Shown here one piece after another: positions 25,458 to 59,658 of a stretch of 64,000 bases of DNA. The stretch is from positions 93,937 to 157,936 of IMG/VR virus record IMGVR_UViG_3300017971_000008. One strand, written 5' to 3'. A program made the translations under genes and the position numbers. The stretch comes from a virus. How positions within the stretch are numbered: position 1 is the stretch's first letter; every line of letters starts with the position of its first letter. The notes under the pieces were generated by a model, which was given only the letters and a program-made list of their open reading frames with translations, had not been told where the DNA came from and made no database searches.

Positions 25458-26993
25458 ATGGCGATTTTACTCATAGACGGGAATCCTCTCATATGGAGGG
25501 CCTACCACACGGTAGGTTTGGACAATGAGGGTGTACTTCGTGGCATAGTCAGTACCGTATTCAAACTCATAGAACAGTTTGGTAACAGCCCTGCTCTGGT
25601 TTTCTGGGATTCAGGTCGTTGTCGGTGGAGGAGTGCCGTGTACCCGGAGTACAAAGGTGCAAGGTCTAAACGTCGAGAGGACCAGGATGAGGAGGAGCTT
25701 GAGGAGGTATTCAGGCAAACCGATGTTGCCAAGAAGTTTATCGGTGACCTCGGGGTACGTCAGATACAGGTTCGTGGGGTTGAAGCTGATGACCTGATAG
25801 GTTGGTTCTCTTCATATCTGTCCGAATCCTTTCAGTACCATACGATTATCTGCACTACAGATAAGGACCTTTGGCAGTTGGTATCCGGGCGTCAGGTGTC
25901 TGTTTACGATGTTATCAAGAAGGAGCAGGTGGATGGCGACTCGGCTGGAGCGTCTTTCGGGGTGGCTCCGCATCTGATACCTGCTTTCAAGTCCCTGGTG
26001 GGTGACTCCTCGGACAGTATTCAGGGTGTAAAGGGTATAGGCCCCAAAACTGCCAGGACTCTTTTGGGCGAGTACGGAGACCTTTCAGGTATTCTGGATA
26101 ACCAGTCCGAACTCATGAAGTCCAAGCGGACGGCGGCTATTTTTGACAATTTAGAGCAGTTGAACCTGGCTTGGCGCCTCGTTACCTTGTCGAGCCACAG
26201 GGAGATGCGCTGGTGTCTGAATGACCGGGAATCTGCGGAATTTGTGCAAGTTTTGAACAAAGAGGTGAAAAGAGAGCCTCTAGGTGCCCAGGTGGCTGCG
26301 GAAAGGCTTGGATTTATGCCGCCAGAGCAACCAGGGGCCTCTGTGCTGTCCTCGGAGGTAATGTCAGGTATGAGCAGCTTCGTACAGAAGGAGAGCGAGG
26401 AGGGGCTCGGTACGCTTCCCTCACTGGATGTTCTGATTGGTGAGTGCAATCAGTGTGCGCTTCGTGGATGTTGCAGCACCTACGGCCCAACCCTTCCTCA
26501 AGGGTATGATGATGTAGAGATCATGATTATCGGGAGGAATCCCGGATATGATGAGCTGCTCGAAGGGCGACCTTTTGTGGGTCGTGCTGGAGAACGTTTG
26601 GACCGGTTTCTGGATGATGTAGGGCTGACACGGCGCGAGGTCTGGGTGACTAACACCTGCAAGTGCTATTCTGAAGGTAACCGGCCACCCTCTTACGGGG
26701 AGATCATGGCATGTTCTCGGTACCTGAGAGCTGAGATCAGCATCATCAAGCCGAAGTTCATCATGACCTTCGGGAACGAGGCCATGTCCATGGTGACGCC
26801 TCATGGAAGTAATGTGACGGGTCACTGTGGGACGATATTCGATAATCCTCATGGGTTGCTGCTGGACATGGACATCCAGGCAAAGGTTGCCGTGTGCGTC
26901 CACCCTTCCGCAGCCCTGCGATCCGCAAAGAGTGAGACTGAGATGAACTACTGCGCTGAGAAAGTGCGCGAACTTTTGGAGAGTGTGAAATGA
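25458..26993 (+). CDS. Flap endonuclease (5'-3' exonuclease) fused to family 4-like uracil-DNA glycosylase
   Basis: This 511-residue protein has two domains. Residues 1-290 are a T5/T4-type 5' nuclease with metal ligands D7, D51, E109, D111, D112, D135, D137, D183 and D186, and a helix-3-turn-helix GIGPKTA at 193-199. Residues 320-511 are an iron-sulfur UDG-type domain with candidate cluster ligands C330, C333, C403 and C419. It also has PFVGRAG (372-378), VTNTCKC, and motif HPS (482-484). Motif A is GRNPGYDE (359-366) rather than the family 4 GEAPG; an Asn there recalls the MUG/TDG GINPG. The fusion would couple RNA-primer or flap removal with uracil repair. The start ATG has no clear ribosome site. 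Confidence 0.85.
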   Translation: MAILLIDGNPLIWRAYHTVGLDNEGVLRGIVSTVFKLIEQFGNSPALVFWDSGRCRWRSAVYPEYKGARSKRREDQDEEELEEVFRQTDVAKKFIGDLGVRQIQVRGVEADDLIGWFSSYLSESFQYHTIICTTDKDLWQLVSGRQVSVYDVIKKEQVDGDSAGASFGVAPHLIPAFKSLVGDSSDSIQGVKGIGPKTARTLLGEYGDLSGILDNQSELMKSKRTAAIFDNLEQLNLAWRLVTLSSHREMRWCLNDRESAEFVQVLNKEVKREPLGAQVAAERLGFMPPEQPGASVLSSEVMSGMSSFVQKESEEGLGTLPSLDVLIGECNQCALRGCCSTYGPTLPQGYDDVEIMIIGRNPGYDELLEGRPFVGRAGERLDRFLDDVGLTRREVWVTNTCKCYSEGNRPPSYGEIMACSRYLRAEISIIKPKFIMTFGNEAMSMVTPHGSNVTGHCGTIFDNPHGLLLDMDIQAKVAVCVHPSAALRSAKSETEMNYCAEKVRELLESVK

Positions 26994-43255: not shown

Positions 43256-44644
43256 ATGCCAGAAATGACTATGAGCTATGACAATGAGAAGAAGTTCGGT
43301 GAGCAGAAGGGTGGGGGTGGCAACTTCAACCCTGAGCTTTACCGGGCGTTGCCTGCCGGTGACGGGCAGACTGCCATCAACAAGATCCTGGTGCTGCTGT
43401 ACGAGCCCTGGAGATGGAGTTTGTTCAACCCGACCCAGGAGATGGCCTCGAAGTACAACCTGGCCTTCAACAATGGAGGTTTGGTGAGCATTCCAGACAA
43501 TCTGTGTACCTTCTTTTTCCAGGTACCTTCTCACGGTATTGATAACTTCAGGCGCCCGGACGGCTCCGAGGGGTTCACCTACGTCCTGTGTCCCAAGAAG
43601 TTCAACGCTTATTTGAAGGGTCACAACTACCAACCTCTCTTCCAGGATGACACCTGCCCTTACTGCGACGAGGAGCAGCGGTACTGGGACATGTTTAACG
43701 ACAGGTTCCTGGAGCTGGGGTTTGATCGAGAGGGCCGAAAGAAGATGAAGGATGGCCAGTACAGGGCCACGGTGGACGGTGATGAGATACTCAAGAAGGC
43801 CCGTTCATCGGCATTCGATCATCGTGTGTCGGATCGTTTTATTTTGAGCATCTTCGATCACGACAAGTTTGTCGGTACTCGTAAAATGGATGAGGGCCAG
43901 ACTGCTGTCGCGCACCAGTTGTGGATCGCTCCGAAGACCGTGTTTGAGGGGGTTCAACTCGTTTATGAGAGTGGCGCCAAGTTCTTCAATACCGCGAATG
44001 TAAAAGAGGTTGCGGTTCTGTCTCTGTCGAAGGACAATTCCAGAGGACGCAGGCGTTCCAAGTACTCGGTTGTCTATAGCGGCGAGACATATGACTATGG
44101 CGCCGAGTGGATGGCTTACCTGGACAACACGGAAACTCGGGTCGATCCGTCCAATTTCATTCATCTGGCGACTCCTGATGAGATGCGGTATTACCTGGGT
44201 GCCGCTTCTGCGGCTACACCACCTGCGGCATATCCTCCCGCAGTGGCTCCAGCAGCAGCTCCTCCCGCAGCTTCGCCTCCTCCTGCTGCTCCTCCCGCAG
44301 CTTCGCCTCCTCCTGCTGCTTCTCCTGCTGCTCCTCCTGCTGCTCCTCCTGCTGCTCCTCCCGCAGCGGCACCACCGGCAGCCGCACCACCTGCGGCGAC
44401 TCCTCCTCCTGCTGCTGCACCGCCGTCTCCGGTACCGCCTCCAGCACCTGCACCGGCAGCAACTCCACAGGCACCCCCACCTGCTGCATCGCCAATGCCC
44501 AGTGCCCCGACAGGTACACCACCTGCGGCGACTCCACCGGCAGCAGCTCCTCCCGCGGCGACCCCTCCTGGTGGCGCCCCACCGGCAGCACCGGGCCATG
44601 TGGCCCCTCCCGGCTCCCCGGCCCCAGGTAAGAGGAACTGGTAG
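43256..44644 (+). CDS. gp32-like single-stranded DNA-binding protein with Ala/Pro-rich tail
   Basis: This 462-residue protein has a core of about 315 residues resembling T4 gp32-type SSB, with a zinc site formed by C112, H93 or H123, C134 and C137 (LCPKKFN...CPYC). From residue about 318 to 455 is a low-complexity tail of PPAA/APPA repeats encoded by an imperfect DNA repeat. The extreme end is PAPGKRNW, which is basic. T4 gp32 and bacterial SSB instead end in acidic tips that bind partners. A strong AAAGGAGAG site precedes the start. It overlaps recA by 1 nt. Confidence 0.75.
   Translation: MPEMTMSYDNEKKFGEQKGGGGNFNPELYRALPAGDGQTAINKILVLLYEPWRWSLFNPTQEMASKYNLAFNNGGLVSIPDNLCTFFFQVPSHGIDNFRRPDGSEGFTYVLCPKKFNAYLKGHNYQPLFQDDTCPYCDEEQRYWDMFNDRFLELGFDREGRKKMKDGQYRATVDGDEILKKARSSAFDHRVSDRFILSIFDHDKFVGTRKMDEGQTAVAHQLWIAPKTVFEGVQLVYESGAKFFNTANVKEVAVLSLSKDNSRGRRRSKYSVVYSGETYDYGAEWMAYLDNTETRVDPSNFIHLATPDEMRYYLGAASAATPPAAYPPAVAPAAAPPAASPPPAAPPAASPPPAASPAAPPAAPPAAPPAAAPPAAAPPAATPPPAAAPPSPVPPPAPAPAATPQAPPPAASPMPSAPTGTPPAATPPAAAPPAATPPGGAPPAAPGHVAPPGSPAPGKRNW
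44203..44620 (+). repeat. Imperfect short repeat coding the SSB Ala/Pro tail
   Basis: Degenerate GCTCCTCCYGCTGC/GCGGCACCACC-type units are repeated over about 400 nt, with near-identical blocks such as CCTCCTGCTGCT. They are in frame and code PPAA-like repeats. Such repeats can expand or contract by slippage. The opposite strand and other frames give long open frames here only because of the composition. Confidence 0.75.
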
Positions 44645-45651
44645 TGACTGAAAAGAAGAAAAATGCTGTCGATGTCCTGAAGACCTTGAAAAAGAAGCAT
44701 GAGGGCAATCTCATGCTTCTTTCTGGCACCGGTATACAACCTGTACCCACAATCCCCACTGGGATCATGTCGCTGAACTCGATTCTTAGCGGTGTCCCCA
44801 ATGGCGGATACGCCAGAGGGCGCATCGTTGAGCTTCTTGGAGTGCCTTCAGGGGGTAAGACCACGATAGCCCTTCAAGGACTGGCTGAAACCCAGGCTCA
44901 AGGTAACGTTGGAGCCATTATTGATGCCGAGCATGCCTTGGATGTGGACTATGCCCAGAGGCTTGGGGTCAGGATGGACAACCTGCTTCTTTCACAACCG
45001 GATTGCGGAGAGCAGGCGCTTGAGGTGGCCAAAGACCTGGTTGATGTTATGGGTGAGGGGGACCTGATTGTGGTGGACAGTGTGGCGGCTCTGACTCCTC
45101 GTGCGGAGATCGAAGGGGAGATGGGGGATGAGCACATTGGGCGCCATGCGAAAATGATGTCCCAGGCTATGCGGAAACTGAATGCTGCCATGGCGACAAA
45201 TGGGGTGACCGTCATTTTTATAAATCAGATCAGGTTTAAGCCGATGGTTACCTACGGCTCTCCTAAAACCACTCCTGGTGGCGAGGCCTTGAAGTTTTAT
45301 GCTTCTCAGAGGATTGAGGTTTCGACGATTTCCAAGGTGAAGATCACGGTGGGTGGTAAAGATGAGTTTGTTGGTAACAGAACCAAGATAGAGGTTATCA
45401 AAAACAAGACTTTTCCACCTTTTAGGAAAGTTGATACCGAGATTCAGTACGGTAAAGGAATTCCTCGGGCATTGGATGTTCTCAAGTTGGCCGAAGGTAA
45501 AGGCGTGGTCCAGAAGGAAGGTAAGTCTTATCTGTATCGTGGAGGTAAGCTTGGTGTCGGGTTTCGGCAGGCATGGCTGTACCTGGAGGAGAATCCTGAG
45601 ATGCTCGGATGGTTGGAGGAAGATGTTGTCAAATCATATGCAGTGTCCTGA
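44644..45651 (+). CDS. recA: RecA recombinase, bacterial type
   Basis: This 335-residue protein starts at GTG overlapping the SSB stop. It has P-loop LLGVPSGGKTT (64-74), where bacterial RecA has GPESSGKTT, then IDAEHALD, Walker B DLIVVDSVAAL, and FINQIR followed by the L2 region. It also has a C-terminal domain shorter than in E. coli RecA. It is closer to RecA than to T4 UvsX. It drives strand exchange in recombination-dependent replication and repair, presumably with the upstream UvsY-like protein and SSB. Confidence 0.9.
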   Translation: MTEKKKNAVDVLKTLKKKHEGNLMLLSGTGIQPVPTIPTGIMSLNSILSGVPNGGYARGRIVELLGVPSGGKTTIALQGLAETQAQGNVGAIIDAEHALDVDYAQRLGVRMDNLLLSQPDCGEQALEVAKDLVDVMGEGDLIVVDSVAALTPRAEIEGEMGDEHIGRHAKMMSQAMRKLNAAMATNGVTVIFINQIRFKPMVTYGSPKTTPGGEALKFYASQRIEVSTISKVKITVGGKDEFVGNRTKIEVIKNKTFPPFRKVDTEIQYGKGIPRALDVLKLAEGKGVVQKEGKSYLYRGGKLGVGFRQAWLYLEENPEMLGWLEEDVVKSYAVS

Positions 45652-45906: not shown

Positions 45907-47025
45907 ATGTCCGATGTTGTCAGGTTCAACGTGTATTCTGACATTCACTATGACCGCCTCGGTGCGCGGTGCATCACTGTGGATGACTGTGCTGAGGTCG
46001 AAACCCAGGTTATCCACAGGGCAGGTGAGAGGGATTGCCATTTTGTTCTGTTCTGCGGTGACAGGTACCTGAAGCGTGAACCTGAGGATGAGGTTAAGAC
46101 CAAGGCAGATCTGGTACTTTACAATTCGTATCAGGGACTTCCGAAACAGATACCTCATTTTCATTTGGTGGGTAACCATGACTGGACCAAGAAGTCTCTG
46201 TCGTGGCATACCTCTGAGTCTTTGTGGTGTTTGAAGGATGCGCGGTTGATGGCTACGCCTGGGACGTACACTGATTACCTGTATACTTCCCCGTTCCTGG
46301 TTCACGCTCTCCCGGCAGATCACAAGTTCGATTTTGAGAAGTACCAAGTCGAGCCGAACAAGTTCAATATCTTCACCTTCCACGATACCTTGCGAGGTAC
46401 TTACCTGGACGATGACAGCAAGATACTCGCTGACTTCGGGGTGTACCGGAACGAGCTTGACCGGCCCGAGTTTGATTACGTATTTGCGGGAGATATTCAC
46501 ATACCCCAGCGGATACCTTTCTCGAATACCCAGGGCGGTTACGTAGGTGCGGTACTTCAGCGCACGATGGCTGACGCAAACAAGGCCAGGGGTTGGGTGG
46601 AGGCTGAGGCGGTCAGAACCGATACCGGGTGGGATGTGCGGACTGAGTTCGTACCCACAAGGAACTTCTTCACCAAGGCTTCGTTCAACGTGACTGATAC
46701 CTCAAGGTATGAGGACATCAGAATAGACGAACAATGGCTCACTGACCAGTATGTTGAAGTTGAGCTTATCGGCCAGAAGGCGAACGTGGATAGAATAGCC
46801 AATGACCCGAGGTGGAGCAATTACGAGACTTATTACACAGTCAGACATCTTGAGGTATCTCGTACCTACAAAATCGAAGAGGGAGAGGTCATTGTGGATA
46901 TGAGTGGGTCGTCGGGTCTTTTGGACGATTTGAACGCTTATCTTGATAGCGGATTTGCGGAACTTGGTATATTACCCAGGGAAGGTGTTACCCAGGCGGT
47001 GTCTGAACTGATGCAGGAGGACTAG
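45907..47025 (+). CDS. sbcD: SbcD/Mre11-like nuclease (T4 gp47-type)
   Basis: This 372-residue metallophosphoesterase has SDIH (11-14), GDR (Asp52), VGNHD (Asn90-His91-Asp92), TFHD (His159) and AGDIH (194-198) as metal-binding motifs. It is the nuclease partner of the SbcC-like ATPase two genes downstream, as in T4 gp46/47. The complex processes double-strand ends for recombination and may degrade hairpins. A small zinc-ribbon gene separates the pair, which is unusual. Confidence 0.88.
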   Translation: MSDVVRFNVYSDIHYDRLGARCITVDDCAEVETQVIHRAGERDCHFVLFCGDRYLKREPEDEVKTKADLVLYNSYQGLPKQIPHFHLVGNHDWTKKSLSWHTSESLWCLKDARLMATPGTYTDYLYTSPFLVHALPADHKFDFEKYQVEPNKFNIFTFHDTLRGTYLDDDSKILADFGVYRNELDRPEFDYVFAGDIHIPQRIPFSNTQGGYVGAVLQRTMADANKARGWVEAEAVRTDTGWDVRTEFVPTRNFFTKASFNVTDTSRYEDIRIDEQWLTDQYVEVELIGQKANVDRIANDPRWSNYETYYTVRHLEVSRTYKIEEGEVIVDMSGSSGLLDDLNAYLDSGFAELGILPREGVTQAVSELMQED

Positions 47026-47208: not shown

Positions 47209-49266
47209 GTGCTCACTGTCTCGTACATCAACCCTTCGGGGTTATTTAGCTATGGTTTGTCGGACAGTATTATGTTCCCGCAGAACAGCCTTATCCATAT
47301 GATGGGGGTAAACGAGGATCGTGGCGGTTGCTCGAACGCTGCGGGTAAGACCGGGCTTCTGAATACCATTTGTGAGGTGTACTACGGGGAGAACCCTACG
47401 AGGGTAAGCGGAGCCGGTGCAGTGAACCGGGTATGGGATCATGGCTGTGCGGGTCGGTCGGAGTTCGTTTCCTGGGAGAATGTGTTTTACCGGATAACTT
47501 ATTGTCGGGACTGGAAGGACGACCTTTACGCAAATGATTGTGGTATCTCGTACAGAGGTACCGACCTCTTCTTTGAGGCCTGGGACGGTGAGAGGTGGGT
47601 GGACCGCCGCGGAGCCAGCATGACGGAGACCCGAAAGGCCATTATCAAGGCCGTAGGGCTGTCCTACAGCCGGTTTCTCGCCATTTCCTACCTGAGCCAT
47701 AGGGTGGGCGTGAAGTTCCTCAGAGGGACGAATAAGGAGCGTGACGACATACTCTCGGGGATAACCGGTGTGGAGGAGTGGGACTCGATTACCTCCAAAT
47801 GCAGAATGGCCTCGAAAGGTATCGATGGAGAGATTGTCGAACTTCGCAGGGACCAGCTTACGAAGCAGGGTGCTTTGGAGGTACTTGAAACCAGTGAGCG
47901 TACATTGAAGGAGCAGGATTGGGGCGAGGCTATCCGACTCAGGGAAGGCGAACTCAGTTCATTCGGTAAGCAGCGGGATGATCTCAATGCGAAGGTACTT
48001 GAGGTGTCAGGTACCATTGAGCAGATGCAGCAATCGACTACGCGAACCTATGATGAGGACAGCCGCATACGTCAGATCGATACCGAGGTATCTCAGCTCC
48101 GTACCCAGGCGGATACTTTAGCCAGGACTCGGATCACTGTGGATGACTTCGGTATCACTGTGATGGAAGGGGAGCGTCACTCCTATTACATCGAGATGAC
48201 CAAGATTCAAGGTGCTATCCTAAACCTGGAAGGCGAAACCACCCTGGCGGCTATGGAGAACTGCCCAACTTGTGGGAGCAAGATAACCAAGGCCAAGAAG
48301 GACAAGATACAGAAGAAACTCAAGAAGTTGGAAAAGGAACTTGAGGTACCTAAGTCCCTGATGGAGGAGACCGATGTGAAACTGGCCGAGGCCCGTACCC
48401 GCCAGGAGGAGCAGCGGGTGGCTAAAGAGCAGCAGAGGGACACCCAGATAGAGGAACTCAATGAGAGGGTAAGGTTACTCGGTATCGAGAGATCGCAGGT
48501 TGAGGCGGCTTCCTTGAAGCTCCAGGAGGAGCTGGTTGCGCTTAAGAAGTCTATGAGTGATCTTGAGGTAGCTATTTCAAGGGTGGATGCCAACATAAAA
48601 CTTACTCAGGCCAACCTTGAGATTGCCCAAGGGAAGGCTCAGGAACTCCAGGTACTTGAGTCTAAACTGTACAACACCAGGGAGGAACTCAATACCCTGG
48701 AGAGTAAGATAACCGAATGTGAGGGCCAGGTGGCCGTGTACAAGTGGCTCATCTCGAACATACCTTACATCAAGCTGCACAAGCTCTCGGTATCGATGGT
48801 GGTACTTTCCGAGCGTGTGAATCAGTATCTTGCGGATATGGGTAACTCGATTCGGGTAGGTATCAGTTCCTTTGCAGAGAAGAAGTCAACGAAGGGTGCC
48901 GCCGATGCCACGGGTACCTTGAAAAGCGAGATTAAGGTTGAGGTAACTGACGGGGTAAAGAACATCGACCCGCGGCTGTACTCGGACGGCGAGGCTGGAG
49001 CCCTGTCCAGTGCGCTTATCCGGGCGCTCCATGACCTTGCGATGCAATTTGGCCATGGCTGTAACCTGAAGCTCCTGGATGAGGTATTTTCGTTCATAGA
49101 CCACGATAACAGTCAGCTCATGGCATCCAGTTTCAGTAATGGCCAAGGTACTACGATAGTGACAGATAATTCCGGTCGGGCATCGGGGCTCATGGATTTC
49201 GATACCGTCTGGGTAGCTCGGAAAAGAAATGGAAAGACCACGTTGGAGGTAAGCAATGGATCGTGA
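47209..49266 (+). CDS. sbcC: SbcC/Rad50-like ATPase (T4 gp46-type)
   Basis: This 685-residue protein starts at GTG. It has an N-terminal half ATPase with P-loop CSNAAGKT (41-48), a long coiled coil broken by the zinc hook CPTC (352-355), and a C-terminal half with signature YSDGEAGALSSAL and Walker B LKLLDEVFSFID. It pairs with the SbcD-like nuclease in DNA end processing. The P-loop lacks the usual GxNGxGKS glycines at two positions but retains GKT. It overlaps the next gene by 11 nt. Confidence 0.88.
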   Translation: MLTVSYINPSGLFSYGLSDSIMFPQNSLIHMMGVNEDRGGCSNAAGKTGLLNTICEVYYGENPTRVSGAGAVNRVWDHGCAGRSEFVSWENVFYRITYCRDWKDDLYANDCGISYRGTDLFFEAWDGERWVDRRGASMTETRKAIIKAVGLSYSRFLAISYLSHRVGVKFLRGTNKERDDILSGITGVEEWDSITSKCRMASKGIDGEIVELRRDQLTKQGALEVLETSERTLKEQDWGEAIRLREGELSSFGKQRDDLNAKVLEVSGTIEQMQQSTTRTYDEDSRIRQIDTEVSQLRTQADTLARTRITVDDFGITVMEGERHSYYIEMTKIQGAILNLEGETTLAAMENCPTCGSKITKAKKDKIQKKLKKLEKELEVPKSLMEETDVKLAEARTRQEEQRVAKEQQRDTQIEELNERVRLLGIERSQVEAASLKLQEELVALKKSMSDLEVAISRVDANIKLTQANLEIAQGKAQELQVLESKLYNTREELNTLESKITECEGQVAVYKWLISNIPYIKLHKLSVSMVVLSERVNQYLADMGNSIRVGISSFAEKKSTKGAADATGTLKSEIKVEVTDGVKNIDPRLYSDGEAGALSSALIRALHDLAMQFGHGCNLKLLDEVFSFIDHDNSQLMASSFSNGQGTTIVTDNSGRASGLMDFDTVWVARKRNGKTTLEVSNGS

Positions 49267-49639: not shown

Positions 49640-49880
49640 CGCACAGCTTCGACGGGAGAAGGCCTCGGCCAAGGCGGTCAAGGTACAGCAGAGTGCAGAC
49701 CGGGTGTCCTTTCGGGTTCAGCAGGGTGACGTTCTTATTTTGAGTGGGCCTTACCGGGATCGCTGGGTAAGGGAGTTGTTTGCTTTGGGTGCTGTGGAGC
49801 GCGATTACATTGTTAAACACCTGTGGTCTACCGGAGACCCGGAGGTTGTAGCCATAATCAACAGTATGGTGTGTCGATAG
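49626..49880 (+). CDS. Small basic hypothetical protein
   Basis: This protein has 84 residues, with the start placed at TTG 49626 because AGGAAGG lies about 6 nt upstream and the open frame further upstream reads inside the previous gene. It has a basic N-terminus (KHDAQLRREKASAKAVK) and a compact C-terminal domain with LILSGPYRDRWVRELFALGA. The start is uncertain. It is probably real because its stop is followed directly by a GGAGAGG site for the next gene. Confidence 0.5.
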   Translation: MGKHDAQLRREKASAKAVKVQQSADRVSFRVQQGDVLILSGPYRDRWVRELFALGAVERDYIVKHLWSTGDPEVVAIINSMVCR

Positions 49881-49888
49881 GAGAGGAA

Positions 49889-50425
49889 ATGAAGAACATT
49901 CAATTTTCGGATAAGAGGAAGTTTTTCTATGACTGCGAGTTCATGGAGGAGCCGGGGTACCTCAAGCTGATCAGTATTGGTGTGGTCGGGGAGCAACCTG
50001 CCCAGGAGTTCTATGCGTGTAACCTGGACGCGGTACCTGGGTTCAAGAGAGCTAATACCTGGGTGAAGAACAATGTACTCCCGAGATTGCCCGATATTAA
50101 TCATTCAGTGTGGATGTCAGAGGAACACATCAGGGATAGCCTGTCTCAGTTTATCGGGTACTCGGAGTCGAGGCCTGTCGAGTTGTGGAGTTACTTTGCC
50201 GATCACGACCATGTACTGCTGTGCTGGTTGTTCGGTAGGATGGTAGACCTCCCAGACGGCATGCCGCAGTACACGATGGACATCAAGCAGCTGGCTGACC
50301 ATATGAACATTCCTGGTAATAAGCTTCCAGAACACAAAGGGGAGGCCCACAATGCTTTGGAGGATGCCAAGTACCACAAGGAACTTTTTGATTACCTGGT
50401 GACCCAGGCCAGATTTGATTTGTAG
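49889..50425 (+). CDS. DEDDh 3'-5' exoribonuclease (Rv2179c-like)
   Basis: This protein is 178 residues from the ATG at 49889 (GGAGAGG site). Catalytic residues of a DEDDh exonuclease are visible: FFYDCEF (D15, E17), YFADHDHVL (Asp107) and HNALEDA (His154, Asp159). The overall pattern, including NNVLPRLPD and LPDGMPQYTMDIKQLA, matches the Rv2179c-like 3'-5' exoribonuclease family. It may trim RNA or degrade host transcripts; the substrate is inference. It abuts the RusA gene without a gap. Confidence 0.8.
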   Translation: MKNIQFSDKRKFFYDCEFMEEPGYLKLISIGVVGEQPAQEFYACNLDAVPGFKRANTWVKNNVLPRLPDINHSVWMSEEHIRDSLSQFIGYSESRPVELWSYFADHDHVLLCWLFGRMVDLPDGMPQYTMDIKQLADHMNIPGNKLPEHKGEAHNALEDAKYHKELFDYLVTQARFDL

Positions 50426-50872
50426 ATGGGTAAGAAGGAAATCAGGTTTGTGGTCAAAGGTAAGCCATGGGTACAGAAGAACAACCTTCAGATCCGAAAG
50501 CGAAAGTTAAAGGGAAAATGGGTACCTTTCATCGACCATTCCGACAAGCTAAAGAGTATCCGGGACCAGATAGCCATCGAGATGTACTCGCAATATCACC
50601 GACAAGGCCTAACCAAACCTATCGATTACCCAATCGAAGTGGAGTTCATATTCTACTGCAAGCGCCAGTGGGAACCCGACCTGGACAACCTGCCGCAGAT
50701 ATGGCTGGACGCGGCCCAGGGGGTCAAGGCCAAGGGCGGATTGAAAATAGCAACCATTCTGACCGACGACAAGTTGGTCAGGAAAGAAACCAGCGAGAAA
50801 ATCATGGAAGGAGATCCCCGTTATGACGGAGAACCAAGAACCGAAATCACCATCCGAAGATACACCTTCTGA
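50426..50872 (+). CDS. rusA: RusA-family Holliday junction resolvase
   Basis: This 148-residue protein has FVVKGKPWVQKNN and a basic N-terminus, then PDLDNL (85-89, Asp85 and Asp87) with a downstream DAAQG (Asp95) and LTDDKLV (Asp114/115). These acidic residues match the RusA active site that cuts four-way junctions. It would resolve replication and recombination intermediates before packaging. It overlaps the trigger-factor-like gene by 50 nt. Confidence 0.85.
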   Translation: MGKKEIRFVVKGKPWVQKNNLQIRKRKLKGKWVPFIDHSDKLKSIRDQIAIEMYSQYHRQGLTKPIDYPIEVEFIFYCKRQWEPDLDNLPQIWLDAAQGVKAKGGLKIATILTDDKLVRKETSEKIMEGDPRYDGEPRTEITIRRYTF

Positions 50873-52139
50873 GGATGCAGAGGTATCCGAGGCCACCGGC
50901 ACAACTGCATCGACGGTGGAGATACCTGAAGGAAGTTCAGGCGCGACTCCTGAACTCGTAGAGGTGCCCGAGGAGGAACGCCTTCCGCCCTTGGACCCTG
51001 GCGGGGAGCTTATCGTGGAGCCATTGGCCCAGCAGTACCGGGCGGTCATTAAGGACCTGGACTATGAGGTACTTCGTGAGATGTTCGACAGGTACTGGGA
51101 TGCTCATGGTGAGGCCATTGCCCAGAACTCTCGGGTGAAGACCCGGAAGAAGAAGGGCGGTAAAGCGGGTAAGAACGCCAAAAAGGTACTTGAGAGCAGC
51201 ATGGGTTTCAAGAAGCTCTACTCCGAGGTACTGGTCCAGCATGTGGTTTCCAAGATAGGGGATGTTCTGCATATCAGTGCCATGGAACTTCATGACTTTA
51301 AGGAGGGCGCCAAGCCGGTCATTATCGTGGCGTTCTATTACCTTCCGAAACTGGAGGTTGACGAGATCAACCTCGATGTACCCTATCAGATGCGGGTGGA
51401 CGAGGAGAAGGAGTACCGCGGATACTGCGAGTACACCTTACTTCAGAATCGAACCTTAGAGGATTTCGATGGGGATGAGATCGACCCGTACCACAATGTT
51501 CTGATGGATGTGACCGCCACCATGGACGGTCAACCTTTCGAGCAGGGTTCCTTGAGGATGCAGTGGATGGACTTAGACCGGCACCCTAACAAGACCTTAG
51601 TCAACGCCATCCTGGAACATAAGAAGGGTGATCTGTTCGAGACTGAGTGGCTCCACGAGGGTAAGGTTGTCTCTGCCCAGGTGAAGATACATGCCCTTCA
51701 GACGATTACCTACCCGGAGCTGGATGACGAGTTCGCCAAGGATTTGGAGTTCGACAGTCTGGATGCTTTCAAAGAGAAGTTTATCAATGATTATCGGGAG
51801 AACGTAGAACGCCAGGAAGAGGCCATGGCGATTGATGGTATCATCAGCAACATTGTTGAGTCAGTGACTCTCCCTCCGCTTCCCGAGGAGTGGGTGGAGC
51901 ATAAGTCGGCTGCCGCCGTGAATGAGCATATTCGGCGTGTAGGTAACAAAAAGAGGGCTCTCCTGTCCGTGGGTGCCAAGGACGAGAATCAGATGCAGGC
52001 CAGGTTCCGTGGTCAGGTTTACAGAACTCTTGTGCAGCAACTGGCGGTGAAGGCCTACGCTGAGAAGTATGACCTAGGCGATGAGGAAGAGGACATCAAG
52101 AAGCACATGAAAGAGCATGTTAACTGGATTAAGAAATGA
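50823..52139 (+). CDS. tig: Trigger-factor-like chaperone
   Basis: This 438-residue protein has a disordered acidic N-terminus of about 55 residues. Residues 70-150 resemble the trigger factor ribosome-binding domain in layout (helices, then KLYSEVLVQHVVSKIGDVL) but lack the GFRxGxxP loop. The middle (residues 165-300) could be the FKBP-like domain. The C-terminus (about 300-435) has LDDEFAKDLEFDSLDAFKEKF, a strong match to the trigger factor C-terminal domain that cradles nascent chains. AAGGAG precedes the ATG. Trigger factor genes are rare in phages. It may assist folding of long structural proteins, such as those at 54985 and 60707, but this is inference. Confidence 0.7.
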   Translation: MTENQEPKSPSEDTPSEDAEVSEATGTTASTVEIPEGSSGATPELVEVPEEERLPPLDPGGELIVEPLAQQYRAVIKDLDYEVLREMFDRYWDAHGEAIAQNSRVKTRKKKGGKAGKNAKKVLESSMGFKKLYSEVLVQHVVSKIGDVLHISAMELHDFKEGAKPVIIVAFYYLPKLEVDEINLDVPYQMRVDEEKEYRGYCEYTLLQNRTLEDFDGDEIDPYHNVLMDVTATMDGQPFEQGSLRMQWMDLDRHPNKTLVNAILEHKKGDLFETEWLHEGKVVSAQVKIHALQTITYPELDDEFAKDLEFDSLDAFKEKFINDYRENVERQEEAMAIDGIISNIVESVTLPPLPEEWVEHKSAAAVNEHIRRVGNKKRALLSVGAKDENQMQARFRGQVYRTLVQQLAVKAYAEKYDLGDEEEDIKKHMKEHVNWIKK

Positions 52140-52723
52140 GACAGATGGTCGAATGTTCGAGTCCGGGGTGCTACGAATGTTTCTTCGTGGGTAAGGATAA
52201 ACCGGGGGTGGGGCATCTTTTTTGTAAAAAATGCAGGGAGGAACATTCTTACCACGTACTGGTGGTTCAGGCTGAACATCAGGATCAGATACGCAAAGTG
52301 TTACTGGATTCCAGGGTGTTCAATACTGCTGCCGGGATGGCCGACTATGTTGGGGTTTCCTTTGTGAGTATCTACCACTGGATTCAAAGGTACTTTGGGA
52401 TGACCTTTCAGGAATTCCGTCGAGAACATATCTGCAAATCGGACAAGTGCTACCTGCTGGACATCTCTGGATCTCCCTACAGTCGTGGGGATTACGTTCT
52501 CAAGAAGATTAAGGACCGGAGGTACTGTGCCTGCATCAATGAGCTTGGTCGGAGCCACATGATGACCAATGCACCTTTTGATTTGGTATCCCAGATTTTG
52601 GGTACGAAACTCAAGATTGTGGGGTTCCTGTATCGACGTCCAGACCAGGTTTCCCCTATCCGTATTCCGAAGGTAATCAAGCCGATATATCTTAAAAAGT
52701 TCCCCGAGCCGATTTACATTTAA
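52136..52723 (+). CDS. Zinc-finger and helix-turn-helix protein
   Basis: This 195-residue protein has an N-terminal zinc finger (CSSPGCYECFF...CKKC). A helix-turn-helix-like segment lies at about residues 65-95 (GMADYVGVSFVSIYHWIQRYF), then CKSDKC and a basic beta-rich C-terminus. It overlaps the chaperone gene by 4 nt. It is likely a DNA-binding regulator closing the replication operon. The family is not recognised. Confidence 0.55.
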   Translation: MRQMVECSSPGCYECFFVGKDKPGVGHLFCKKCREEHSYHVLVVQAEHQDQIRKVLLDSRVFNTAAGMADYVGVSFVSIYHWIQRYFGMTFQEFRREHICKSDKCYLLDISGSPYSRGDYVLKKIKDRRYCACINELGRSHMMTNAPFDLVSQILGTKLKIVGFLYRRPDQVSPIRIPKVIKPIYLKKFPEPIYI

Positions 52724-53170: not shown

Positions 53171-54022
53171 ATGAATAGAACAGCCAGAAAACAGAGACTT
53201 GCCCGTGCCAAACGCAGGGCTCATCATTTGTGGAAAGGGGCTGAGGAAGACGGCAGGCCGGTTATTAAACGAGCGCGGCCTGAAGAGGAATTTGAAATGT
53301 CTATGGAAGCAGGACGTGGGAAGCGTGGTCGCAGGACTGCCGGTCGGAACGAGGTGTCGGATCTGAATGCCGTATACTGGGGTCTGTTCGGGGCTTCCTT
53401 GGTGGACAGCAAAACCCTTTCGAGCGATATCCCTCGTTCGGTAGCGAATCAGTTCAATCGGACTGCTCGTCGGAATGCTGGCAACTTGCCGAGGGTTCTT
53501 GGATGGTCGAAGCTCGGTACCGCGTTCGCTACCGCGGACATTGCTGGTATTCGTAAAGACATCTCTTTCGGGATGCAGACCAGGTTGGCATCCAAGTATT
53601 TCAACGTGCCCTTTCTCGCTGCCGCAGACATAGTCTACGACATGGAAGGTGTGGACCACCGTCAGGTCAAGCAGGCTATCGACATGATCCGTGAGGGCAG
53701 GCGCCGAGAGGCGGTTAACCGGTATGGCGACTTGGCCATGGAGCTTTCCCGCATCTACACCAAGTACAAGGATGCCAAGAACCGCAAACTGGCTATCGAC
53801 CGATCCGCTAAGGAATATTGGGAGTCGTACCTGGGTCCTTTCGGCCAGGAGATGGTCCGCGAGATCAAGAAGCGTGTTCGTGCTGACCTCGCCAAGGCCT
53901 GGATGCGGAAGCACGGTGTTGACGATGCCGCTGCGGAGTACTGGGCCAGCTACTACGGGGAATACGGTGAGAAGTGGGTCTCCGTGGTCCCGAAGATGAT
54001 CTCTCCCAAGAGTGACGATTAA
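53171..54022 (+). CDS. Basic structural-type protein with SYxGxxG repeats
   Basis: This 283-residue protein has a very basic N-terminus (ARKQRLARAKRRAHH; GRGKRGRRTAGR near residues 49-60). Two copies of an A..YW.SY(L/Y)G.(F/Y)G motif lie near residues 215-228 and 256-268 (AKEYWESYLGPFGQ, AAEYWASYYGEYGE). A third copy occurs in the 1557-aa protein downstream. The basic part shares the KRGRR/AG flavour of the separators in the large proteins. This suggests these three genes belong to one system. No catalytic motif is seen. The start follows AGGTGG. Confidence 0.55.
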   Translation: MNRTARKQRLARAKRRAHHLWKGAEEDGRPVIKRARPEEEFEMSMEAGRGKRGRRTAGRNEVSDLNAVYWGLFGASLVDSKTLSSDIPRSVANQFNRTARRNAGNLPRVLGWSKLGTAFATADIAGIRKDISFGMQTRLASKYFNVPFLAAADIVYDMEGVDHRQVKQAIDMIREGRRREAVNRYGDLAMELSRIYTKYKDAKNRKLAIDRSAKEYWESYLGPFGQEMVREIKKRVRADLAKAWMRKHGVDDAAAEYWASYYGEYGEKWVSVVPKMISPKSDD

Positions 54023-54350: not shown

Positions 54351-54962
54351 ATGCGAAACGTGAAACAAGACCTAGCAAACGCTTCTGGTAAAGTTGTGAG
54401 TGATATTGGTGGTGGCCGTTTAGCTGCCATGTACGCGCAGAATGCTGCTGCGCGTAGAGCGTATGACCGTGGGAACGAAGGACGCACCCATGACGACCGT
54501 GTTGTTCTGGAGAAGCTCCGTGCCATGGTAGAGCGTGGCATCGAGGAATCCGACAAGAAAGCTGTCAGCGGGAGCCTCCCGGTGAACTCGGTGTTCAATG
54601 CGCTTCAGATAGTTAATGAGAACAAAGAGATCAATCGGGACGTTGGTCTCAAGGCTTTGAAAGGTCACCTGGAAGCCAAGTGGAAACGTGACCGTACAGC
54701 CAGTATCTCTGCCGACGACTACAACCAGATTCGAGAGACGTATACGAGAAATTATCCCCGTTCAGTGGTTGGCTCTGTGATTGATGAGATCGGACAGCAG
54801 GGTTACGTGACCCTTCCGTTATCGGATCTCATGCATATTGCCAGTAAGATTCGTACCCAAGGGGATTTCGATAGGCTGATGAGGCGGCACGGGCTTCATA
54901 CCAATCAGCTGCACCATAGAAAAGCCCGGAACTTCATCCTTTCGGTTGTCAACGGACGATAG
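54351..54962 (+). CDS. Hypothetical helical protein
   Basis: This 203-residue protein starts at the ATG after GAAAGGG. It is mainly helical and polar: LAAMYAQNAAARRAYDRG, VVLEKLRAMVERGI and ARNFILSVVNGR. Gln/His-rich LHTNQLHHRK lies near the C-terminus. It lies upstream of the giant gene and may share its transcript. The family is not recognised. Confidence 0.55.
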   Translation: MRNVKQDLANASGKVVSDIGGGRLAAMYAQNAAARRAYDRGNEGRTHDDRVVLEKLRAMVERGIEESDKKAVSGSLPVNSVFNALQIVNENKEINRDVGLKALKGHLEAKWKRDRTASISADDYNQIRETYTRNYPRSVVGSVIDEIGQQGYVTLPLSDLMHIASKIRTQGDFDRLMRRHGLHTNQLHHRKARNFILSVVNGR

Positions 54963-54984
54963 GTCTGGAAAAAGGAAGCAAGAC

Positions 54985-57900
54985 ATGCCTAAGAATAAAT
55001 CTATGCGAAATGGTCGTTTCACTCCGAGTTCAGTGGTCAATCGTATCCTTGATGGCAAGACGGTGACCGCGAATGGTTGGTCCATCGGCATTGACAACAA
55101 TGACAAGGTGGTGACCTGGCCACCCCGCGGCGATGGGTTCATGACCACCATGGCTAACATCGACAAGGCGGCGAAGGACTTCTGCAAGCAGGCAGAGATG
55201 CCCATGCCCAAGCCCTACACAGAGCCTGGAGATGCTGTGAGTGTCCCGAAGAGTCCCGGCCCTGACAGCGATTCCAAGAACATCTCCACCCCGAAGAATT
55301 ACGCGGACGGCTCCGAGAGTTCCATCAGCGTTCCCAAGAGTCCCGGCAAGGACACTGAGACCGATCACTTCACCAGTCCTGCGGTGAATGAGGGCGTAGC
55401 TCCGAAGGGACCAATGACCGACACCAGCCTGGGCAGCGATTCAGATTCCAGCGAGTCAGGTATGGGTAAGGATATCAAGCAGACTCCTGACGGGGTGAAG
55501 GATGCTCGTCGGAGGCAGGCTGCGTTCATGGAGCCTATGGTGTGGGAGAGTGACTTTTACGCTATCGATGGTGGTATGGGTACGACTTTTGTAGAAGTTG
55601 ATGTTGTGGGTGATATCCCTGTTACCGATTTAGAAGCCTTTGGAGACTACTATGAGGGCGGTTTTGAGGGGATTGAGGAAGTTGAAAAGGTGCATGGGTG
55701 GGGATCTCAGATGTCGGCTCCTGGGTATATGGATCAGACTGATCTTAGTGTTTATGATACCAAGGAAGAAGCTATTGAGGCTCTGTTTGAGTACTACATG
55801 ACAGATATGGGTGAGTTGGATGAGCAGTACGAAGAGTATCGTGACGAGTACGAGAAGTATTACCTCAAAGGCGAGAAAGAAGCCCGTCGCAAACCCGCCC
55901 GAAGACGCCCTGCTCGACGGAGGGCTCAGGGAGATGATTGGTCCGACGAACAGCACCAGGTTTGGGATGCGGTCGAACACGCGCTAGAGCAGTTGAACGC
56001 AGCTGAGTATGATCGTCAACGGGGTAAAGGTAAGAAGCCCTTGAAACAGTTCCATCCGAGTCCTGAAGGTGAGTTTTTGGAGGATCTTCGTCAGCAGTAC
56101 ATGCGAGGTGAGGTAGACGCTGAGACCGTAATGGCTACTTTGGCTAACCCTGAGCTTTGGGAAGCTCGATTTGGTGCGGCTCAAAAAAGAGCAAAAATCA
56201 TCGACACCTTCTCCCAGGAACCTGATGGGAAAGAAATCTACGCCAACCTCACGATGGCCCGACCGTCCGAAGCACTCCTGAAAGACATCGCGGACCCAGA
56301 CAAATGGCTGGCCACCCAGACCATTCGTGCCATGGAGGAAGATGTAGAAGCTGGGTGTGGTGGCGGTCCTGGCAAGAAACGCAAAAAAGAGGAAGCCGAA
56401 GCTGAGATGGAAGCTGGCTGTGGTCCTCCTGAGAAGAAATCCTTTCGTAGGAAAGGTCAGTCCGATGATTACGATGTGTACCTGAAAGATGAGATTCAGG
56501 GTGAGTGGCTCTCGGGAGACAAGGACAAGGCTCTGGAGATGCTTGCGGGAGCCGATGATTGGATGACTCTTTTTAACGCGATACACCAGGGCTTGAAGTT
56601 CGCTACCCCGCAGGAGGGTACTGACTGGCACTCTGCCGTGCGCCAGTACATGGAGTCTATCGGTAGGGACATGACTGCTCGACGCAGACCGCGCCGGTCG
56701 GTTCGCAAGAGGGGTCAGGATGAAGAAAACGGTGAGTATCCGATAGACCTGTATCTGGTGGTGTCTGACATTACAGAGTACATCAGTGGTCAACCTGAAG
56801 GAATAAATGTCACGGGTGCCTATGAGGTGCATTTAGTGGACGCTGCCGAACAGACCCATCTCGCGGAAATGACCCCTTCATACTACGGACGTTTTGTCGG
56901 GTTACAGGCAACCGTTGATGACTATGGTGCGCTTTCGGAGGAACAGGCAGAGGCTCTGAACGACTATGAAATTGAGTTGTCAAACTATACTGAGTCTGGT
57001 GACTATTTCCGTGAGGCGGATATCAAGTCTGGTGTTCCTTACGACAAGGCGACGGTCTCTGGCAAAGAGGAACGTGACGAGTACATAGAGGATACGGTCG
57101 AATACCTGCAAGGTAACACTGCTGATTGGGAAAACGCCATTGATGAGGTTGCTCGTAAGAAGACTTCCAAAACCCGCCGATCCTACGAAGAACCCGGCGC
57201 AGATCGCAACCTGGACGTACCCGATGAGTTCATTGCGATGGAACCCCCCAAGACTCCCAAGGACAAGGAAGCCCGTCGCCGCAGACGCTCCCAGGATGAG
57301 GGCGGTGTCTACACCTTCGACCAGCTCGACGAGAAGGCCAAGGAAAAAGCCCTTTACTGGTTTTTGGAAGATGCTGATGTCTTTGAGTGGGAGGCTGAAT
57401 ACGTCATCGACGACGCCAAGGAAAATGCCCCTGCCGGTTTTCAGATAGATGAGATTTTCTACAGCGGTTTTTCGTCGCAAGGCGATGGTGCTTCCTGGAC
57501 AGGTTGGGTGGATCTCGCAGAGTGGGCCAAGGCCACTAATCAGGACGAGGGCATTATCAGACTCGTTGAGAGTGAGGAGATTGAGTCCTCTGCCAAAGTT
57601 ACACAGGACGGGCGTTACTCTCATGAAAACACTATGGATGTCGAGGTTGTCATAGACCGTTATGAAGCTGATGAGGCTTCTGGCATGAGCGGAGACGAAA
57701 TCGAGGCCAATGCCGACCAGTTACAGGAGGCTGTGCTGGATGCAGTAAAGGACTATGCCAGAGAGATCTATAGCAGGTTGGAGCAGGGCTACGACCATGT
57801 CTATAGCGAAGAGAACCTGAGCTACCTGGCTGAGGCGAATGAATGGGTGTTCAACAAGGACGGTACCTTTGCTTGGGACAAGAGCTACGATGACCTGATC

Positions 57901-59658
57901 ACCCATCCTGATCAGATGAAGCTTCCTGGGGTAAAGGGCAAACGCAGACGTTCCTTTCGACGAAATGCTGGCCTATATGAAGACATTATGGATGCCGGTA
58001 TTGAGACCGACAACCATGAGTCGGACCTCTATTTTCCTGTAACTCCTGAATCAACTGAAATCCTGAAGAAGTACCCAATGAATGAAAAAAACTCTCAGAC
58101 GTTCATAGATAATATCAGTGGTGATGAATGGTATGATGTTCCCTTTGCGTTTCCAGGAGTTAGGGGTAATAGAAAACGCCAAGCAGGCCCCAAACTCCGC
58201 GAGAAGTGGAATGACGGTGGTGATTACTCCAGGGATCTGGAAGCCGAGTCTGCCGAGGAGCTCTACAACCTGACCATGGCCTTTGGCGGTGAAGAGGTTG
58301 ACTGGCCCGATACTACGGCTCAACCTGCCATGCCCGAGCAGGCACCTCCTGCTGAGGCACCTCCGGTCGGTGGCGTTGCCGCCGAAGAGGATATGTCCGA
58401 GGTAATGGCCAGCAGCAAGCTTGCCGAGTTCTCAGACATTGAGGCCGTGGACGATGAGGCCAAGAGCTACTACGAGAGTTACTTTGGCGAGTACGGCAAA
58501 CAACTGGTCAAGGACGATCCTCCTGGAAAGAAAGACAAGAAGGCCCCCAAGGACGGCAAACCTGAACTGGGCAAGCCAGAGAATAAGAAGGATAAGAAAA
58601 AGTCGAGGCTGGTTCGTCATAGGAAACCTGCTCGTCGGCACCCTCGTCGGAGGGCTCAGGACAAGAAGAACGGGCCTCGTTTTTTCGAGGAAGAAGAGGA
58701 TCTATACCGCTGCCCCAATTGTGGGCAGGAGGAATGGACTACGGAGAGTTTTTTGGACAAGGGTCCGAAATTTGAAAAGTGTCCTAATTGCAGTGAGGGG
58801 ATGGAGAGAGTAACCAGGGGACGGAGAACCCCTCGTCGGAGAGGCCAAGCCGCCCCCGCGGCACCGGCCCCCAAACAACCCGCAGCTCCTGCGGCACCCG
58901 CTGCACCAGCAGCGCCTGCGGCGGCACCTGCCGCCCCCGCGCCAGCACCTGCACAACCTGCTGACCCCGGTGCAGGAACGCCCCCCACGGGCAAGCCAGC
59001 AGCTCCTGGTGAGAAACTGGCACCCGGAGCAGGCGATGCCGGTATCCAGGCACTCGGATGGACTCCTGAGGACATCCAGACGATGACCGATGAGCAGAAG
59101 CAGGGCCTCCTGCAACTCAAGCTCATGAAACCCGGCGCACAGATACCTCAACCTCCGGGAACACAACCTCCTGGGAAGCCCGAAGGTAAGCCTGGGGTAC
59201 CGCCGAAAGCACCCGCGGGGCCTGCGGGTCCAGCAGGACCTCCCGGACCTGGAGAAGCGGCTCCTGGCGCACAGCCAGCGCAACCTGCACCGCAGGAGAA
59301 AGTTCAACCTGTAGTGGGTGCGATCAGCAAGATGCTGGCCCAGGTGGACCCCACGGCGGCTCCCGTGGACCCTACCATGGCCGGGGCACCCGCAGAGGCA
59401 GCCCCGGCACCCGCAGAGGCAGCCCCGGCACCCGCAGTAGGCGGTGAGCCGATTCTCTCTCCTGAGGAACAAGCATTTGCTATCCTTAGGGAGGTTCAAT
59501 CGCAGGACATGAGCGCCATCGATCCGAAGCAATTGGTATCCGCTAAGAGCCAGGAGCTGATCAGGCGGCTTCAGACTGAAATAGGTATGACCGTTCAAGA
59601 GGCCGAGAAACTGTTCGGCGTATCAAAGAGCAAGGGCTTCGCAAGCCTGTTTTCATAG
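54985..59658 (+). CDS. Giant modular protein with repeated Arg-rich separators (polyprotein-like)
   Basis: This protein has 1557 residues, with ATG 54985 chosen for its AAAGGAAG site over an upstream TTG. After a disordered N-terminus (about 1-175), modules are punctuated by basic separators such as ARRRPARRRAQ, FRRKGQ, VRKRGQ, ARRRRRSQ and PRRRGQ, nine in all. Modules resembling separate small phage proteins include 182-298 (SAPGYMDQTDLSVYDTKEEA), 771-985 (SGFSSQGDGASW) and 997-1062 (DNHESDLYFPVT, WYDVPFAF). Residues 1069-1212 include YYESYFGEYGKQLV, and 1226-1277 is a zinc ribbon (CPNC...CPNC). A Pro/Ala-rich tail follows, then helices ending in SKSKGFASLFS. Function is unknown. Confidence 0.75.
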   Translation: MPKNKSMRNGRFTPSSVVNRILDGKTVTANGWSIGIDNNDKVVTWPPRGDGFMTTMANIDKAAKDFCKQAEMPMPKPYTEPGDAVSVPKSPGPDSDSKNISTPKNYADGSESSISVPKSPGKDTETDHFTSPAVNEGVAPKGPMTDTSLGSDSDSSESGMGKDIKQTPDGVKDARRRQAAFMEPMVWESDFYAIDGGMGTTFVEVDVVGDIPVTDLEAFGDYYEGGFEGIEEVEKVHGWGSQMSAPGYMDQTDLSVYDTKEEAIEALFEYYMTDMGELDEQYEEYRDEYEKYYLKGEKEARRKPARRRPARRRAQGDDWSDEQHQVWDAVEHALEQLNAAEYDRQRGKGKKPLKQFHPSPEGEFLEDLRQQYMRGEVDAETVMATLANPELWEARFGAAQKRAKIIDTFSQEPDGKEIYANLTMARPSEALLKDIADPDKWLATQTIRAMEEDVEAGCGGGPGKKRKKEEAEAEMEAGCGPPEKKSFRRKGQSDDYDVYLKDEIQGEWLSGDKDKALEMLAGADDWMTLFNAIHQGLKFATPQEGTDWHSAVRQYMESIGRDMTARRRPRRSVRKRGQDEENGEYPIDLYLVVSDITEYISGQPEGINVTGAYEVHLVDAAEQTHLAEMTPSYYGRFVGLQATVDDYGALSEEQAEALNDYEIELSNYTESGDYFREADIKSGVPYDKATVSGKEERDEYIEDTVEYLQGNTADWENAIDEVARKKTSKTRRSYEEPGADRNLDVPDEFIAMEPPKTPKDKEARRRRRSQDEGGVYTFDQLDEKAKEKALYWFLEDADVFEWEAEYVIDDAKENAPAGFQIDEIFYSGFSSQGDGASWTGWVDLAEWAKATNQDEGIIRLVESEEIESSAKVTQDGRYSHENTMDVEVVIDRYEADEASGMSGDEIEANADQLQEAVLDAVKDYAREIYSRLEQGYDHVYSEENLSYLAEANEWVFNKDGTFAWDKSYDDLITHPDQMKLPGVKGKRRRSFRRNAGLYEDIMDAGIETDNHESDLYFPVTPESTEILKKYPMNEKNSQTFIDNISGDEWYDVPFAFPGVRGNRKRQAGPKLREKWNDGGDYSRDLEAESAEELYNLTMAFGGEEVDWPDTTAQPAMPEQAPPAEAPPVGGVAAEEDMSEVMASSKLAEFSDIEAVDDEAKSYYESYFGEYGKQLVKDDPPGKKDKKAPKDGKPELGKPENKKDKKKSRLVRHRKPARRHPRRRAQDKKNGPRFFEEEEDLYRCPNCGQEEWTTESFLDKGPKFEKCPNCSEGMERVTRGRRTPRRRGQAAPAAPAPKQPAAPAAPAAPAAPAAAPAAPAPAPAQPADPGAGTPPTGKPAAPGEKLAPGAGDAGIQALGWTPEDIQTMTDEQKQGLLQLKLMKPGAQIPQPPGTQPPGKPEGKPGVPPKAPAGPAGPAGPPGPGEAAPGAQPAQPAPQEKVQPVVGAISKMLAQVDPTAAPVDPTMAGAPAEAAPAPAEAAPAPAVGGEPILSPEEQAFAILREVQSQDMSAIDPKQLVSAKSQELIRRLQTEIGMTVQEAEKLFGVSKSKGFASLFS
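55501..58848 (+). repeat. Nine Arg-rich ARRRxAQ-type separators in the 1557-aa protein
   Basis: The in-frame basic elements lie at 55501-55527, 55879-55929, 56434-56460, 56677-56718, 57268-57294, 57940-57972, 58171-58188, 58621-58659 and 58816-58848. Most end in (A/G/S)Q or AG. Several share DNA: GAAGCCCGTCGC begins those at 55879 and 57268, and GGAGGGCTCAGG occurs at both 55919 and 58649. Confidence 0.7.
59385..59437 (+). repeat. Tandem 21-bp repeat in the Pro/Ala tail
   Basis: Two and a half copies of a 21-bp unit (GGCACCCGCAGAGGCAGCCC core) code APAEAAP twice. It is in frame and likely unstable in length. Confidence 0.7.

Follow-up and report, generated by a model that had tools for sequence, protein, structure and literature searches.

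Why would a bacteriophage carry a gene for trigger factor (TF), and does the encoded protein work at the ribosome as bacterial TF does? TF is, to our knowledge, the sole ribosome-bound chaperone of bacteria; since further docking copies do harm, genomes nearly always have just one. Phages do encode other folding helpers, such as GroEL/GroES-like proteins and T4 gp31, but these have an unrelated fold and an ATP-dependent chaperonin cycle. GroEL/ES analogues occur in marine viruses, and the virome study that describes them reports that no TF could be detected in its set of viral proteins (PMC8407431). The locus considered here lies in a 64-kb stretch of DNA (the window), the 3'-most part of a 157,936-bp viral contig. 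Because this 158-kb contig encodes a portal, a head-maturation protease, a major capsid protein, a baseplate wedge and a complete set of replication and recombination functions, it belongs to a large contractile-tailed phage; the nearest named relative is Virus Rctr197k (57% identity in the capsid, 42% in the portal), followed by Bacillus phage G. With moderate confidence we read the protein in question, P0001, as a TF-derived phage chaperone (a holdase) cut loose from the usual docking site on the ribosome.

Table 1. Positions in the window of the TF gene, its parts and its neighbours
Feature	Position	Strand	Basis
RecA	44644..45651	+	profile matches
SbcD/Mre11-type nuclease	45907..47025	+	profile matches
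SbcC/Rad50-type ATPase	47209..49266	+	NCBIfam match
3'-5' exonuclease, Rv2179c-like	49823..50425	+	Pfam match
RusA-type endonuclease	50426..50872	+	Pfam match; 3' end overlaps TF frame by 50 bases
Shine-Dalgarno AAGGAG of TF gene, within rusA 3' end	50808..50813	+	sequence
Trigger-factor-derived protein P0001, 438 aa	50823..52139	+	ORF, profile and fold matches
N-terminal tail, residues 1-61, predicted disordered	50823..51005	+	model and family alignment
Ribosome-binding-domain fold, residues 62 to ~180	51006..51362	+	model, Foldseek, hhalign
Replaced docking loop RVKTRKKKGGKAGKNA, residues 104-119	51132..51179	+	family alignment
FKBP-type PPIase-like domain, residues 210-296	51450..51710	+	profile alignment, Foldseek
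Conserved TF C-domain start LDDEFAKDLEFDSLDAFKEKF, residues 300-320	51720..51782	+	alignment
C-terminal helical chaperone domain with arms, residues 302-432	51726..52118	+	Trigger_C, model, alignment
Zinc-ribbon plus HTH protein	52136..52723	+	ATG overlaps TF stop codon

A preliminary description had taken the gene for a phage-borne TF homologue on the strength of a C-terminal signature, LDDEFAKDLEFDSLDAFKEKF, and both points are borne out. The signature stands at the onset of the match to Pfam Trigger_C (residues 312-431, E=4.3e-9, 37.1 bits, above the curated cut-off of 22.7), the LDDEFAKD start of the C-domain being conserved with bacterial TFs, and the homology extends beyond it, with the NCBIfam tig model (TIGR00115) matching residues 131-431 at E=3.8e-23. 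At 82 bits P0001 misses the equivalog cut-off of that model (180.2); it is ~20% identical to bacterial TFs, and its relatives L095 and L097 fall below the Trigger_C cut-off. A profile of the phage family matches the solved TFs of E. coli (1w26, 1.1e-20) and V. cholerae (1t11, 7.1e-21), and hhalign aligns the phage family with bacterial TFs over 350 columns (99.3% probability, E 1.8e-20). SurA/PrsA-type membership (SurA_N_3, E=0.016) was dropped, since the fold and profile matches point to TF. The Shine-Dalgarno sequence lies nine bases ahead of the ATG, and the other loci checked also have an A/G-rich one ahead of TF.

An AlphaFold (AF2) model built from a nine-sequence alignment (mean pLDDT 80.8, pTM 0.57) leaves residues 1-61 disordered, a tail whose length varies between relatives and whose first 50 bases overlap rusA, and predicts the loop at ~103-116 weakly. 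The model, Foldseek and hhalign together give an N-domain, a PPIase domain and a C-domain in TF order and with the TF fold. Against the PDB, Foldseek ranks 1-8 are all TFs (3gty 4.2e-15, 1t11 1.2e-13, 1w26 4.4e-13), with 394-403 columns aligned to full-length TFs at probability 1.00; over the whole chain the TM-scores on the query are modest, 0.22-0.45, as would be expected if the domains hinge. Taken singly, the E. coli PPIase domain (1l1p) matches with a TM-score of 0.62 on the target and the E. coli N-domain (1oms) with 0.52-0.56. The ribosome-binding domain, predicted to run beta-beta-helix-loop-helix-helix-beta-beta, is retained, traceable in both fold and sequence. The C-terminal arms, whose presence in a predicted structure had been proposed as the check on TF ancestry, are there, though the chain lacks roughly the final 40 residues found in bacterial TFs, a truncation that might weaken chaperone activity. 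Among the viral structures of BFVD, none matched the model at E<=1e-3.

In the docking loop P0001 departs from this scheme. In TFs the GFRxGxxP motif contacts Rpl23, Rpl29 and 23S rRNA (PMC9527764). The motif is intact in 80/80 bacterial TFs fetched from GTDB genomes, a non-random set of many phyla chosen by similarity to P0001, with G, F, R, G and P each 100% conserved. From P0001 it is absent, the loop position having been rewritten rather than deleted. All eight distinct proteins of what we call the rewritten-loop clade carry a Lys/Gly-rich KxKKxKGGK...A at this position, several residues longer than the bacterial loop; K106, K109, G112, G113 and A119 are invariant across the eight, as are K/R at the position of the motif F and A at that of the motif P. 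Net loop charge in the clade is +3 to +9, versus a bacterial mean of +2.7. A relic reading of GGKAG for GFRKG, taken from a five-sequence alignment, was dropped, since in the family alignment the second G is unconserved and the loop is longer. The earlier remark that the docking loop is not seen thus needs dividing: the motif is gone, but the ribosome-binding domain is present with a basic loop substituted, and sister phages keep the normal loop. Because P0001 is homologous to TF yet lacks some tested features of the ribosome-docking family, it would best be filed as a TF-derived variant.

Since the N-domain is kept and the new loop is basic, some contact with the ribosome or with RNA is possible. 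Indeed, the rewritten loop might still dock, either because it has been retuned to an exit port that diverges in the host or because its lysines touch rRNA, in which case the phage TF would supplant that of the host on the ribosomes of the infected cell. The modelled N-domain fold and the conservation and strong basicity of the loop speak for such retuning, as does the case of algal chloroplast TFs, which depart from the motif with a matching ribosomal-protein change, ribosome association being preserved in the chloroplast orthologue (PMC9527764). We nevertheless consider it unlikely, given the constancy of GFRxGxxP across so many bacterial phyla, the change of both F and R in every clade member and the added loop length.

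The history of the loop can be followed through relatives of the phage. An IMG/VR scan with a capsid alignment that included Rctr197k gave 66 relatives; single-sequence scans of viral contigs with the TF protein or the DNA polymerase as query gave none. When 41 viral records (mostly the longer capsid relatives) were searched with P0001 and 24 with the family profile, TFs turned up in G004, G005, G006, G014, G017 and G037 and more distant ones in G015, G019 and G020; G042 and G043 came from a scan for the TF pattern. The clade thereby gained seven further distinct homologues, at 32-40% identity, on eight contigs (L095, L096, L097, which is identical to L098, L099, L100, L101 and L102). The TF gene is present in every capsid-group contig found to hold the recA region, bar one that ends inside recA, and those contigs of the group that gave no TF match and were checked either have no recA or break off within it. 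The lack of a TF match is uninformative for G007, whose contig stops inside recA, and for Rctr197k and G012, which have no recA match either. Two further candidates (L086, L103) were set aside as contigs whose TF gene sits at the margin of a phage region, that of L103 within tig-clpP-clpX-lon; in L103 (IMGVR_UViG_3300005882_000426) a prophage tail module sits directly beside this bacterial cluster, which suggests integration near tig.

Three sister phages with related capsids (G015, G019 and G020) also carry TF beside sbcC but differ from P0001 in the loop: the proteins of G015 (L190) and G019 (L191) keep GFRxGxxP, and that of G020 (L192) nearly does (GFRNGKGV). The G019 protein is likewise predicted to be TF-like in fold. 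A separate phage, G001, encodes a TF (P0002) with GFRKGTAP. In the capsid tree a branch with 100/99 support separates the rewritten-loop phages from the motif-bearing ones, so that one loop change suffices; in the TF tree the eight rewritten-loop proteins form one clade (support 100), and the two phage subgroups are joined at support 87. A single TF capture for both subgroups is likely, if unproven, that support being only 87. Most simply, the docking motif would have been lost once within the phage TF lineage, the direction of change being read as loss because the motif is universal in the bacterial TFs examined. By the L097/L101 pair (dN 0.26, dS 1.53, dN/dS ~0.17, with dS near saturation), the TF gene in the clade is under purifying selection.

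A second functional site has changed as well. At the positions of the E. coli PPIase-domain residues F168, F177, F185, F198, Y221 and F233 the phage-family consensus has V, Y, Q, L, K and A, the change at the F177 position (F or Y) being conservative; with the active-site residues mostly replaced, prolyl-isomerase catalysis by the phage protein is unlikely. One might go further and see in P0001 a neofunctionalised protein that has ceased to act as a chaperone and become, for instance, a regulator or a component that is injected or built into the virion, a view to which the low identity to bacterial TFs, the loss of the PPIase site and the C-terminal end and the virion-like appearance of the next downstream genes lend something. 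That the whole TF fold is retained in the model, client-binding arms included, and under purifying selection makes this very improbable in our estimation.

Phages of the rewritten-loop clade have the gene order recA-sbcD-sbcC-(small)-(exonuclease)-rusA-TF-(small)-zinc/HTH gene, and the rusA and TF frames overlap by 44-77 bases in the rusA-bearing relatives; G043 is without rusA at the TF locus and has a different gene upstream. Homologues of the zinc/HTH gene lie downstream of TF in subgroup-2 loci and were not found in the sister phages, in which TF follows directly after sbcC. The suggestion that such a chaperone folds virion proteins does not fare well here: the gene lies in a recombination cluster (recA, sbcD, sbcC, exonuclease, rusA), outside the tail and head operons, a location that gives no special support for virion-protein clients. 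Nor do we give any real credence to an assembly artefact or stray host DNA, for although several TF-bearing "phage" database records are really bacterial contigs, the same gene order recurs in independent contigs of other samples, in genomes with related capsid genes, and P0001 has no tig-clpP-clpX context around it; the syntenic relatives refute this reading.

The cluster itself invites another thought, namely that the basic loop has nucleic acid or a recombination protein as its ligand and that P0001 is given over, as chaperone or adaptor, to the SbcCD-RecA-RusA machinery. The gene keeps company with recombination genes in both subgroups, and the loop is Lys/Gly-rich. Yet unrelated early genes are often grouped in phage gene order, DNA binding by P0001 would be an assumption, and the sister phages have an ordinary loop beside the same genes, which argues that the location preceded the loop change. 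We regard so dedicated a role as rather improbable, somewhat more so than a retuned docking loop. Retargeting of the Lys/Gly loop to nucleic acid or to the recombination proteins encoded alongside, which would make this the first TF dedicated to a target other than the ribosome exit, we hold to be an outside chance of about the same order as retuned docking.

How unusual is a phage TF? The view that such genes are rare in phages holds for the collections searched. A tblastn search of 50,697 phage records (INPHARED) gave best matches that are unannotated, and 4/4 inspected proved to be bacterial contigs, three with tig-clpP and two of these also with clpX, and were ruled out as phage TFs; nearly all of the remaining matches are unannotated too. 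These phage-labelled records (L008-L011; MT835986, OR846597, MT835536, MT839851) are bacterial chromosome contigs, with tig-clpP-clpX in L008 and L010, tig-clpP in L011 and ordinary metabolic genes in L009. Neither the annotated phage genomes nor the open-access full texts searched yielded a TF encoded by a phage. PHROG family phrog_26774, labelled "unknown function", matches residues 208-431 of P0001, weakly (4.8e-5), and also matches bacterial TF genomes; unannotated viral TF relatives are thus clustered there already, in a TF-related viral family that differs from P0001 in the weakness of the match and in carrying no annotation.

The closest parallel comes from bacteria with several TFs. 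In 367/390 such genomes one copy alone keeps the docking motif, and overproduced TF does harm except when its N-domain has been taken off (PMC11559001). The motif-less extra copies (e.g., Myxococcus MXAN_6153) resemble P0001 in being TF-derived, in having lost the docking motif and in retaining the PPIase-like and C-terminal domains; they are mostly without the N-terminal domain, whereas P0001 keeps it with a conserved basic loop (PMC11559001). Extra TF copies in bacteria are kept in check by the toxicity of docking and lose the same motif, and this offers a reason for the loop change, since a phage adding a TF to a TF-bearing cell would meet the same pressure against docking.

The sequence of events that we favour is then as follows. 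A phage lineage would have captured a TF and kept the gene in its recombination cluster; in the branch leading to P0001, GFRxGxxP would have been swapped for the longer Lys/Gly-rich loop, uncoupling the protein from the standard ribosome site, and the prolyl-isomerase pocket would have decayed. What remains, a cradle of N-domain, FKBP-like domain and helical arms, would most likely serve as an ATP-independent holdase that keeps newly made phage proteins, or host proteins that have been disturbed, in solution in the cytosol and leaves the ribosomes free. We infer, in other words, that P0001 does not dock at the uL23 site, that it holds rather than isomerises and that such proteins are its clients; it and the other clade proteins would probably act away from host ribosomes. 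The preservation of cradle and arms, the loss of loop and pocket, the selection on the gene and the bacterial multi-TF data are why we favour this ribosome-uncoupled holdase over both a retuned ribosome binder and a recombination-dedicated chaperone. The original idea of a chaperone that stays out of the competition for ribosomes fits the clade-wide motif loss under purifying selection. Against it counts that the sister phages keep the docking motif, which implies that a second TF able to bind ribosomes is tolerable to phages.

A virus group with its own TF, spanning a docking form and a loop-replaced clade, provides a natural series in which one can ask which step a phage needs: docking, prolyl isomerisation or client holding. 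It also provides a compact set of proteins for probing TF function off the ribosome, a long-standing open point.

Several other features of these genomes deserve mention. The zinc-ribbon plus HTH protein has HTH_18 (E=0.005) as its only match and is possibly a phage transcription regulator without a family. The product of 43256-44644 is, by position and general look, probably a gp32-like single-strand binding protein, though without a Pfam match; its long Pro/Ala-rich tail recurs in L100. The protein of 53171-54022 has an N-terminal RRAHHLW motif, with AHHLW, AHHMW or EHHMW at the same position in L095, L096 and L099-L102, and is probably a virion-associated module. A 1570-aa low-complexity ORF (54946-59658) contains seven basic blocks ending in RRxQ/RxGQ-like motifs (RRRPARRRAQ, RRHPRRRAQ), which resemble repeated protease sites or DNA-binding patches. 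In G001 a PD-(D/E)XK-type nuclease ORF (L012:808-2745) is apparently split by an intein-like insert. Finally, one 511-aa ORF at 25458-26993 fuses a 5'-3' flap exonuclease to a domain of the uracil-DNA-glycosylase superfamily.
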